NCBI RefSeq assembly: GCF_023278365.1
Contig: NZ_CP075338.1
Location: 806,001-870,000, forward strand
Direction of reading: 5' to 3'
DNA: 64,000 nucleotides
DNA from: Epilithonimonas zeae
Lineage (GTDB): Bacteria; Bacteroidota; Bacteroidia; Flavobacteriales; Weeksellaceae
This document shows, piece after piece, positions 56,024 through 58,560 of the stretch; the stretch's first letter is position 1; each line of letters begins with the position of its first letter. A program made the translations under genes and the position numbers. The notes under the pieces were generated by a model, which worked only from the letters and a program-made list of their open reading frames with translations, was not told where the DNA came from and did no database searches.

Positions 56024-56605
56024 ATGAAAAAATTTAAACTTTTAATTATTGGAGCATTTATGATTACAGTAAAAATAAGTGCACAAAGTGAACCATTTGT
56101 GGGACAAATTATGTTTGTACCCTACAATTTTGCACCAATCGGCTGGCATGATTGCGATGGATCTGTGGTAAGTATTGCAGAATATTCTACATTATTTCAG
56201 TTAATTGGAACAACTTATGGTGGAAACGGGCAGACAACTTTCGCTTTACCAGATATGAGAGGCAGGGTTATTATAGATGATGGAAATGGAGCTGGTCTTA
56301 GTCCATATGTACTTGGACAAAAGGGAGGTACAGAAACTGTAACATTAACAGTTAATCAAATGCCATTTCACACTCATAATGTTGTAGGATCTAATTTAAA
56401 CGGAAATTCTAGTTCGCCAACCAATGCGGTACCTGCTAATACAAGAATATTAGACCCGGAATATTCTAATGCTACCTCCGATACAACTATGAAAGTCAAT
56501 ACTGTATCAAACAACGGCGGATCTCAACCACATAACAATATGATGCCTACTACAGCAATGAAATGTGTCATCGCTACGGAAGGTATTTTTCCATCACAAA
56601 ACTAA
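56024..56605 (+). CDS. Secreted tail-collar domain protein, copy 1
   Basis: A 193-residue protein with a Sec signal peptide (MKKFKLLIIGAFMITVKISAQ). The remainder is a phage tail-collar/microcystin-dependent protein domain: FVGQIMFVPYNFAPIGWHDCDG, YSTLFQLIGTTYGGNGQTTFALPDMRGRVIID, VTLTVNQMPFHTHNV, and KCVIATEGIFPSQN. The two Cys (CDG and KCVI) are shared with copies 2 and 3. In phages such domains trimerise at tail fibre tips and bind receptors. There are no phage genes nearby, and the signal peptide points to secretion. It begins the four-gene operon 5 nt before copy 2. Confidence 0.86.
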   Translation: MKKFKLLIIGAFMITVKISAQSEPFVGQIMFVPYNFAPIGWHDCDGSVVSIAEYSTLFQLIGTTYGGNGQTTFALPDMRGRVIIDDGNGAGLSPYVLGQKGGTETVTLTVNQMPFHTHNVVGSNLNGNSSSPTNAVPANTRILDPEYSNATSDTTMKVNTVSNNGGSQPHNNMMPTTAMKCVIATEGIFPSQN

Positions 56606-56610
56606 ATACT

Positions 56611-57198
56611 ATGAAAACAAGCAAACTATTTTTTTTGATGTTTATGATCGTAATAAACTCAAAACTCTCCGCGCAAGATGGAACACAATACGTTGGGCAA
56701 ATCGCCTGGGTATCATTTACTTTTGTACCAAATGGCTGGGCAGAGTGCAATGGTGCATTGCTTCCCATACAGCAAAACACAGCTCTCTTTGCCTTATTAG
56801 GAACACAATACGGCGGTAATGGAACAACCAATTTTGCACTCCCCGATTTACGAGGACGAACGCTAATTGGCTCTGGAAACGGACCTGGTCTAACACCGCA
56901 ATCTAATGGAGAAATGACTGGAGAAAGCCAAACAACTCTTAATATTCTTAATCTACCTTCACATAATCATTCTGTAAAAGCTGTGAAAGCTGTTGGTAAC
57001 AAAAACACGCCAGGAGGCAATCTACCTGCAAACACGGGAGATGAGGATCAAGAATATTCTACTGCTATTTCAGATACTACTTTTAATACTCAAGCTATAC
57101 AAGCTAGCGGATCTGGTCAGGCTCATAATAATATGCAGCCTTATGGTACTTTAAAATGTATTATTGCTTTAAACGGTGTATTTCCTCCACATCCTTAA
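56611..57198 (+). CDS. Secreted tail-collar domain protein, copy 2
   Basis: A 195-residue protein from the ATG at 56611 (an upstream frame start at 56563 lies inside copy 1). The signal peptide ends KLSAQ. The collar domain follows: YVGQIAWVSFTFVPNGWAECNGALLPIQQNTALFALLGTQYGGNGTTNFALPDLRGRTLIG, LNILNLPSHNHSV, and KCIIALNGVFP. It differs clearly from copy 1 in the central 110-160 region (GGNLPANTGDEDQEYST), where the exposed tip of tail-fibre proteins normally varies. The same CxxxG and KCxI cysteines are kept. Confidence 0.86.
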   Translation: MKTSKLFFLMFMIVINSKLSAQDGTQYVGQIAWVSFTFVPNGWAECNGALLPIQQNTALFALLGTQYGGNGTTNFALPDLRGRTLIGSGNGPGLTPQSNGEMTGESQTTLNILNLPSHNHSVKAVKAVGNKNTPGGNLPANTGDEDQEYSTAISDTTFNTQAIQASGSGQAHNNMQPYGTLKCIIALNGVFPPHP

Positions 57199-57214
57199 TT
57201 TTAATATTTATATT

Positions 57215-57799
57215 ATGAAAAATAAAAATTTAATTATACTAGGTTTGATATTATTATCAACAAAAAGTTTTGCTCAGTCTACCCCATTTCTTGGGCAGAT
57301 AGCTTATGTTACTTTTGGCTACGCACCCAAAGGTTGGGCTGAGTGTAATGGTCAAACCTTACCAATTAATCAGAATGTAGCTCTGTTTTCACTTTTGGGG
57401 ACGACCTACGGTGGAAATGGCAGTACCACTTTTATGTTACCAAATATCCAGGGTAGGGTTATTTTAGGGAATGGTCAGGGACTTGGTCTACCCAATTATT
57501 CACAAGGCGATATTGGAGGAGAAGAAAACCACACGGTTACCTTGAACGAGATGCCGGCACATAATCACAGCTTATTGGCTGTTAAAGCCAATGGTAACAC
57601 CAGTGATTCAAGTTTAGGTGTACCAGCAGATACAAAAACTCTGGACAAAGAGTACAGCACAGACCTCAGCAGTCCAGCTCTTATGAAAAATGATATGCTT
57701 ACTAGTACAGGAGGTAGCCAACCACATCCGAACATCCAGCCTTACATCACTTTCAAATGTATCATTGCTTTACAGGGCATATTTCCATCAAGACCTTAA
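57215..57799 (+). CDS. Secreted tail-collar domain protein, copy 3
   Basis: A 194-residue protein from the ATG at 57215 (an upstream frame start at 57176 falls in copy 2). Signal peptide ends KSFAQ. Collar domain: FLGQIAYVTFGYAPKGWAECNGQTLPINQNVALFSLLGTTYGGNGSTTFMLPNIQGRVILG, HTVTLNEMPAHNHSL, and KCIIALQGIFPSRP. It is closer to copy 2 than to copy 1, so the array grew by duplication. It is followed after 11 nt by the T9SS-sorted protein. Confidence 0.86.
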   Translation: MKNKNLIILGLILLSTKSFAQSTPFLGQIAYVTFGYAPKGWAECNGQTLPINQNVALFSLLGTTYGGNGSTTFMLPNIQGRVILGNGQGLGLPNYSQGDIGGEENHTVTLNEMPAHNHSLLAVKANGNTSDSSLGVPADTKTLDKEYSTDLSSPALMKNDMLTSTGGSQPHPNIQPYITFKCIIALQGIFPSRP

Positions 57800-57810
57800 A
57801 ATTTAAACTT

Positions 57811-58503
57811 ATGAAAAAAATATATTTATTATCAACAATATTACTGTCTGTTGTGGTTCTCGCACAGGATATAACATTCAGTGGATGTACCAATTTGTTT
57901 GGTGCTGCCAATTATCTTTTTACCAAGGAAACCAATCCCGATACTTATGGCAAAAGAATCTACGTGACGTCGCCAGTAACGGGAGATCAACCTTGCGGAG
58001 GTTTGGGAACTTGCGAATTCAAAATACAATGGAATAATACAATGTCAAGATGGGAATTCTTAGCTGACGAAGGTGACGGCACTTTTACCAGCCCATATCT
58101 CATATATTATAATTCTACAGGAAGCAGCACAGCACCGAATCCACCAAGTAATAATGTTGGAACGTGGGTAGAAAATACATCTGTTACAGAAGGCGCTTGC
58201 GGTGGAAATTTGACGACTTCCAATTCCAATTTTTCGGGTGATGTTCATACAACAACTTTAGCCGTTAATGAAACTGATAGTGGGAAAGCACTTCTATTTC
58301 CTAATCCTGTTGTGGATAATATAGGCATCCAAGGTCTTGGAAGTGCAAAAGAATATCAAATAATAGGTATGAGTGGACAAATAATAAGATCTTCAAAATT
58401 TGAAAATAAAATTAATGTCAAGGATTTGGAATCCGGAGTTTATCAATTGATAATTATTACGACCGATTCCAGAACCCATCAGTTTAGATTTATAAAAAAA
58501 TAA
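57811..58503 (+). CDS. T9SS-sorted secreted protein of the collar operon
   Basis: A 230-residue protein from the ATG at 57811, with signal peptide MKKIYLLSTILLSVVVLAQ. The N-terminal cargo (about 20-155) is Cys- and Gly-rich (FSGCTNLFGAANYLF, QPCGGLGTCEFKIQW, EGACGGNLTTSN), with no known family. The last ~70 residues are a Type IX sorting domain (ALLFPNPVVDNIGIQGL, YQIIGMSGQIIRSSKF, LESGVYQLIIITTDSRTHQFRFIKK). The gene lies 11 nt after collar copy 3, so it is probably exported to the surface together with the collar proteins and may anchor or display them. Confidence 0.82.
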   Translation: MKKIYLLSTILLSVVVLAQDITFSGCTNLFGAANYLFTKETNPDTYGKRIYVTSPVTGDQPCGGLGTCEFKIQWNNTMSRWEFLADEGDGTFTSPYLIYYNSTGSSTAPNPPSNNVGTWVENTSVTEGACGGNLTTSNSNFSGDVHTTTLAVNETDSGKALLFPNPVVDNIGIQGLGSAKEYQIIGMSGQIIRSSKFENKINVKDLESGVYQLIIITTDSRTHQFRFIKK

Positions 58504-58528
58504 ATACTATATTTCTTTAGTTTTATAA

Positions 58529-58560
58529 GTCGGAAGAGTTTTCTTCCGGCTTTTTGTTTT
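58529..58560 (+). terminator. Terminator of the collar/T9SS operon
   Basis: GTCGGAAGA-gttt-TCTTCCGGC with one G-T pair, followed by TTTTT, 26 nt after the stop. It closes the four-gene unit. Confidence 0.85.

Follow-up and report, generated by a model that had tools for sequence, protein, structure and literature searches.

The window, i.e., the whole stretch of 64,000 nucleotides of Epilithonimonas zeae that was analysed, contains an operon of four genes on the + strand, which are separated by 5, 16 and 11 nt (c1–c2, c2–c3 and c3–partner, respectively). The first three genes are c1 (56024..56605, 193 aa; PF07484, 4.4e-26), c2 (56611..57198, 195 aa; 1.5e-26) and c3 (57215..57799, 194 aa; 2.5e-25). 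They encode collar proteins that each start with a Sec-like signal peptide followed by a collar domain; the structure of c3 was modelled. The fourth gene (57811..58503) encodes a partner protein of 230 aa, consisting of a signal peptide, an N-terminal domain without Pfam match (residues 19–150, 57865..58260) and a type A T9SS C-terminal sorting domain (residues 162–230, 58294..58500; TIGR04183, 3.9e-9). The starts of genes 2–4 were taken inside longer listed ORFs. Downstream on the same strand, a hairpin of 11 pairs with a T tail is present at 58527..58552. The initial annotation called it a strong terminator, but the number of such matches is near chance (2 found vs 1.4 expected), and only its terminator-like appearance stands.

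Six neighbors of the operon were scanned with Pfam. Four scored above the cut-off (an acetyltransferase, a MepB-like protein, DUF5723 and DUF2071) and two had no match; phage families were absent from all six, which agrees with the earlier statement that no tail, capsid or integrase genes lie nearby. The genome measures 3.94 Mb in one contig and encodes the T9SS translocon protein SprA (2074.9 bits). It has 136 matches to T9SS sorting domains, which is estimated to be a few per cent of the genes when ~3,600 genes are taken. A fourth collar gene is present elsewhere in this genome. At L158 4653–6823 (C1:3226652–3228822), a lone collar without signal peptide is followed by a protein that looks LRR-like by eye and has a T9SS sorting domain.

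The description of c1–c3 as tandem collar genes with their own signal peptides was borne out. All three match PF07484 with 89–93 bits against a cut-off of 24, which places them in the collar family. Their signal regions end in SAQ or FAQ and are Sec-like by eye, and the collar domain begins at residue 27–29 of 193–195. Neither PF18962 nor TIGR04183 matches c1–c3, so that the collars themselves do not qualify as type A T9SS cargo. The model of c3, which is weak (pLDDT 67.6), aligns over residues 17–188 with the collar fold of 1ocy, 2xgf and 8kec, pointing to a gp12-like fold; the match is to the receptor-binding domain of the T4 short tail fiber. The mutual identity of c1–c3 peaks at alignment columns 61–80 (0.65–0.70) and is low in the signal peptide (0.30–0.35) and in columns 101–140 (0.30–0.50) and 161–180 (0.35–0.40). 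The central regions were originally said to differ most between the copies. These columns are indeed low, but the signal peptide is equally so, and the D-x-E-Y motif between the low stretches (at about columns 141–150) is nearly invariant in relatives, which makes the region unlike a freely varying tip.

The partner has a sorting domain above both cut-offs (PF18962, 34.3 bits vs 27; TIGR04183, 36.4 bits vs 23), as was claimed for the gene 11 nt downstream. Together with its signal peptide, assigned by eye, and the presence of SprA in the genome, this marks it as a type A T9SS cargo protein. The label 'Cys-rich' was too strong, as there are 4 to 6 cysteines in 70 relatives. Its closest named relative, from E. 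lactis, is 74% identical. The N-terminal domain has invariant C, Y, W, PP, W and C positions (alignment A3, 13 rows); PDB sequence searches with this domain gave no credible match, and in the structure comparison of the partner the matches were taken up by the sorting domain.

To survey the co-occurrence of both components, as the initial annotation had suggested, 296 Weeksellaceae genomes were searched separately with a partner profile and a collar profile, and loci were taken from the matches listed in these score-ordered searches. The partner set ends at 2.5e-77, the next matches (7.8e-23) lying mainly over the sorting domain. Class A collars, to which c1–c3 belong, were delimited at a score gap (220 vs 183 bits). 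This gave 104 partners in 103 of the 296 genomes. A class A collar lies upstream of 103 of the 104 partners, at 5–19 nt in profile coordinates, and in the lone exception (G179) the reading frames of collar and partner are both broken. Conversely, each of the 127 class A collars (102 genomes) has a partner no more than 3 kb away, and none was found alone. A scan of named-species genomes likewise yielded 69 partner loci from Chryseobacterium, Epilithonimonas, Kaistella, Halpernia, Soonwooa and some MAGs, with a collar directly upstream in every case. Within the family, class A collars and the T9SS gene are thus linked almost without exception; as the genomes are related, these counts are not independent events. 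A DUF4407 gene family flanks 63 of the 69 loci, and another family, which includes an IMP dehydrogenase, flanks 60 (53 by exact motif). The window and several Epilithonimonas-type loci occupy another genomic place, without the IMP dehydrogenase neighbor.

Class A collars are also marked by their sequence. For this comparison 92 class A rows (89 from loci L031–L099 and three from the window) were set against 176 other collars from retrieved contexts. A second cysteine near the C-terminus is present in 89 of the 92 class A collars vs 1 of the 176 others, and the D-x-E-Y motif in 86 vs none. A first cysteine is common to both sets (90/92 and 136/176), as is P-x-H-x-H (92/92 and 144/176); the H-x-H motif holds a metal in gp12 and gp37. 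Both cysteines occur in 87 of the 92 class A rows, two of the five exceptions being rows trimmed past their start, and a disulphide between them would be formed in class A collars. Signal peptides outside the window were assigned by a hydropathy rule, not by SignalP. By this rule nine collars outside class A, from eight loci, score as Sec-exported, and they have neither the second cysteine at that position nor D-x-E-Y. The two features are therefore marks of class A and not of export as such, and the idea of the second cysteine as a general export sign was dropped.

The operon might be the remnant of a prophage tail module. The collar domain and matches to PHROG tail families are what such a remnant would show, yet the surroundings speak against it. 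No phage family, and hence no tail gene adjoining a collar, was found among the six window neighbors or the ten flanking families shared by the 69 relatives' loci (not every flank was scanned). Moreover, the partner has no match in 50,697 phage records, nor was it found in a pattern scan of viral contigs, and the pair is linked in 102 genomes. A prophage remnant is thus very improbable and was dropped as an explanation; nor do c1–c3, in the functional sense, appear to be phage tail proteins. The similarity of c3 to phage proteins is low, with 36–38% identity in the best 12 of 345 phage places and less than 60% in all 345. Among the matches listed, 12 plasmid places reach 45–56%, and two plasmid records fall in the 60–80% band.

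These identities also bear on a defensive role, in which exported collars would act as a decoy by occupying or blocking the receptors that incoming phages need. A gp12-like fold and the patchy presence of the module (103 of 296 genomes) would suit a decoy, but the best 12 phage places listed are just 36–38% identical to c3, and D-x-E-Y is nearly invariant instead of fast-changing, which leaves this idea improbable. The anti-competitor structure proposed in the initial annotation was not supported as stated.

The number of collars varies between genomes. One class A collar is present in 88 of the 102 genomes, two in 3 and three in 11. In a tree of 66 collars, c1, c2 and c3 each group with the same-position gene of seven other loci, Soonwooa included (support 89/88, 100/97 and 100/99, respectively; 8 loci each). 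Since each groups by position across eight loci, the triad is of old origin and has kept a fixed order. The single collars of Chryseobacterium form a separate group. In Halpernia, the order is collar–partner–collar–partner–collar, and the three collars are a local expansion by duplication. These data bear on the earlier proposal of an obligate c1–c2–c3 heterotrimer displayed by the partner. The distinct lineages in conserved order fit it, and so do the triads among other collar classes and the 560-aa frame of one distant genome described below. As 88 of the 102 linked genomes have a single collar, however, a heterotrimer is not required, and the Halpernia arrangement arose by local duplication. 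As a general rule the obligate heterotrimer falls away, and for the window's own triad it is conceivable but doubtful. Where the three paralogs are kept, i.e., in these eight loci, they probably specialise, perhaps as a heterotrimer. The 560-aa frame (L194 1492–3174, genome G457) contains three collar domains, an arrangement suggesting that the members of a triad can work together as a single unit of three parts.

Beyond the family, the partner N-terminal domain returns beside collars. In the contexts of other collars, the best match, leaving aside L204 and the gene of the window itself, is a 620-aa protein at L242 in which the domain occurs twice (5.1e-7; profile built from close relatives alone). 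It lies 12 nt 3′ of a collar and has a sub-threshold Pfam sorting domain at its C-terminal end (23.2 bits vs 27). With the same profile, L249 reached only E 2.4 but has the same motifs by eye; after L242 and L249 had joined the profile, L247 (4.3e-4) and L251 (6.7e-4) followed. In L249, L247 and L251, which come from one distant genus, the domain is part of a T9SS-type protein 9–206 nt after a collar triad. A search of 395 Bacteroidota genomes with A3 gave 13 matches, 10 of which, in nine genes, adjoin collars; L242, L249, L247 and L251 are all seeds of A3, which biases this search to such cases. L249 had been added by eye, and among the distant members only L242 was found by a profile holding no distant member. 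Of the other three matches, the one in G307 has no collar neighbor, the one in G511 is close to the end of a contig and lacks an upstream collar, and the one in G502 is full of stops. Subject to this bias, the domain is rare and mostly collar-bound.

Other collar classes show a related pattern. In the family sample, a same-strand sorting-domain gene comes next downstream of other-class collars in 18 of 28 loci: in 18 of the 19 with clusters of one or two collars, the exception being a single collar, and in none of the 9 triads. These collars have no signal peptide by the hydropathy rule, except for one that is Tat-like. Outside the family, 73 stretches were retrieved, a set that does not include a few of the collar clusters listed; of these 73, L270 (no collar above 60 bits) and L236 and L250 (no gene downstream) were left out. 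A sorting-domain gene directly follows 20 of the resulting 70 collar loci, one of them class A (L204), and not the other 50, compared to 4 of 244 background genes located four or more genes away from a collar (Fisher, 4e-11). The loci were picked from score lists and not by their neighbors, but this test overstates the difference, as the genomes are related and the background, consisting of crude and partly spurious ORFs, is likely too low. In addition, the sorting-domain profile used for the counts was seeded with nine Pfam-matched proteins, mostly from the counted loci. No single protein that unites a collar with a sorting domain was found, either among the matches listed (two sets of 120, judged from the Pfam columns) or in the loci inspected.

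Several arrangements were seen among these other classes. A second pair, found in 16 loci of the family (L162 5030–6419, L274 4475–6469, L163, L276, L278–L287, L289 and L290), consists of one or two collars without signal peptide and a T9SS-type protein of 273–277 aa. The spacing is 18–40 nt in 15 loci and 133 nt in L279, and the four 273–277-aa proteins inspected in full are unlike the window's partner. In L160 5446–6471, L200 5722–9849 and L202 5902–10701, collars are followed by long proteins with a common 'GDI' N-terminal motif by eye. Those of L160 and L200 end in a sorting domain, the one of L202 runs off the stretch, and they are possibly a further partner family. In L161 1113–9842 (G295), a collar triad adjoins genes that by eye are formyltransferase-, glycosyltransferase-, methyltransferase- and PIG-L-like. 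Export by Sec does not account for the signal-less collars that precede sorting-domain genes. Tat-like (twin-arginine) N-termini are seen on collars outside class A at L149 2290–2952, L206 4996–6905 and L236 229–894, and may represent another export route for such collars.

The pairing itself could also be explained by two separate cargoes of one operon, which serve in a common location (surface or matrix) without forming a complex, the collars staying periplasmic or leaving by vesicles. In favor of this, the collars have no sorting domain, and the sorting-domain proteins that follow other collars are of quite different kinds. Co-variation points in the same direction. Over 40 single-collar loci, the distance correlation between collar and partner N-terminal domain, given GuaB, is 0.16 (p 0.005), and the one for the sorting domain is 0.32 (p 0.001). 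Co-evolution of collar and N-terminal domain beyond species distance is thus weak and non-specific, without sign of a specially co-evolving interface. On the other hand, collar and partner are paired at short distance and nearly invariably in 103 genomes, and in distant families this partner domain again turns up next to collars. Both observations argue for a joint function, and we consider two separate cargoes rather unlikely.

The two-part collar–partner module is real and conserved. Its most economical interpretation, which we hold with slightly more belief than doubt, is a chromosomal, non-phage surface module in which gp12-like trimeric tips use Sec for export and are presented together with a T9SS-sorted partner. 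According to this model, the collars would cross the inner membrane by Sec and acquire a disulphide that joins the two conserved cysteines. Three chains would assemble around a metal bound by H-x-H, in the manner of gp12-like tips, and the resulting trimer would associate with the partner N-terminal domain. The T9SS would carry the partner out and fix it to the surface, by which the tips would be displayed or released there, where they might bind a glycan or envelope ligand as fiber tips do. In most module-bearing species of the family, a single collar gene, i.e., a homotrimer, would suffice. Of the collar complex displayed by T9SS in the initial annotation, the tie to a T9SS gene is what the survey supports; a sorting domain is present in the partner and not in the collars, and it is an inference that a complex forms, that the collars cross the outer membrane in this way and that they bind such a ligand. 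The boldest version that is still open is export by piggyback, in which the collars, themselves devoid of a sorting domain, would fold and assemble into trimers while still periplasmic and exit bound to the T9SS cargo, with the partner N-terminal domain as a dedicated collar adaptor. This carrier route is put forward tentatively, the odds being against it. If true, the T9SS would be able to export complexes by piggyback, and Bacteroidota would own a class of surface fiber tips made from phage-type parts, whose sorting-domain partners could be exchanged across the phylum.

Bacterial genomes commonly contain proteins annotated as 'phage tail protein' or 'tail fiber protein', whose cellular role, to our knowledge, is mostly unstudied. 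The conserved pairing hints at a role for one collar class, namely export and a link to a secretion system of the cell surface, and the gene set of the Chryseobacterium group suggests that phage grappling tips have been taken over by bacteria for use on their own surface. Should the complex prove real, it would be a compact and modular adhesin or receptor-binding system, the T9SS would be able to carry passengers, and the partner domain would offer a handle for finding such systems throughout Bacteroidota. In the open-licence PMC literature, to which preprints and most subscription papers do not belong, nothing was found on a pairing of a collar or phage tail protein with T9SS.

The window's proteins can be compared to several known systems. 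The T4 short tail fiber gp12, the tip of the T4 long fiber gp37 (1ocy, 2xgf) and the fiber of cyanophage A-1(L) (8kec) have the collar fold in common with the c3 model, as well as H-x-H. In contrast to these fibers, the window's collars have no fiber shaft, but they do have a Sec-like signal, an extra conserved cysteine and a place in a chromosomal operon with T9SS cargo. The bacterial proteins annotated as MdpB, 'microcystin-dependent protein' or tail fiber protein (COG4675) belong to the same family, have the same size and often occur in three copies, as in the window. The others that were sampled mostly have no signal peptide by the hydropathy rule, nearly all do not have the second cysteine and D-x-E-Y, and, unlike the window, their triads in the family sample have no sorting-domain gene next downstream. 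COG4675 also appears in the tables of a soil metaproteome (PMC5579227). A bacterial precedent is formed by the MAT fibers of Bdellovibrio. They are described as phage-fiber-like trimers that are encoded by the bacterium and located on the cell surface, one of which binds prey surface glycans (PMC10769870). These are long chimeric fibers with a β-rich domain of ~130 aa right after the signal peptide, followed by the fiber (PMC10769870). Measured against that description, the window's collars have no room for such a domain and are not MATs; they consist of a short tip, and the T9SS partner is a protein of its own. Finally, the partner has the signal peptide and type A sorting domain of type A T9SS cargo proteins, from which it differs by an N-terminal domain without Pfam match and a near-obligate collar gene upstream.
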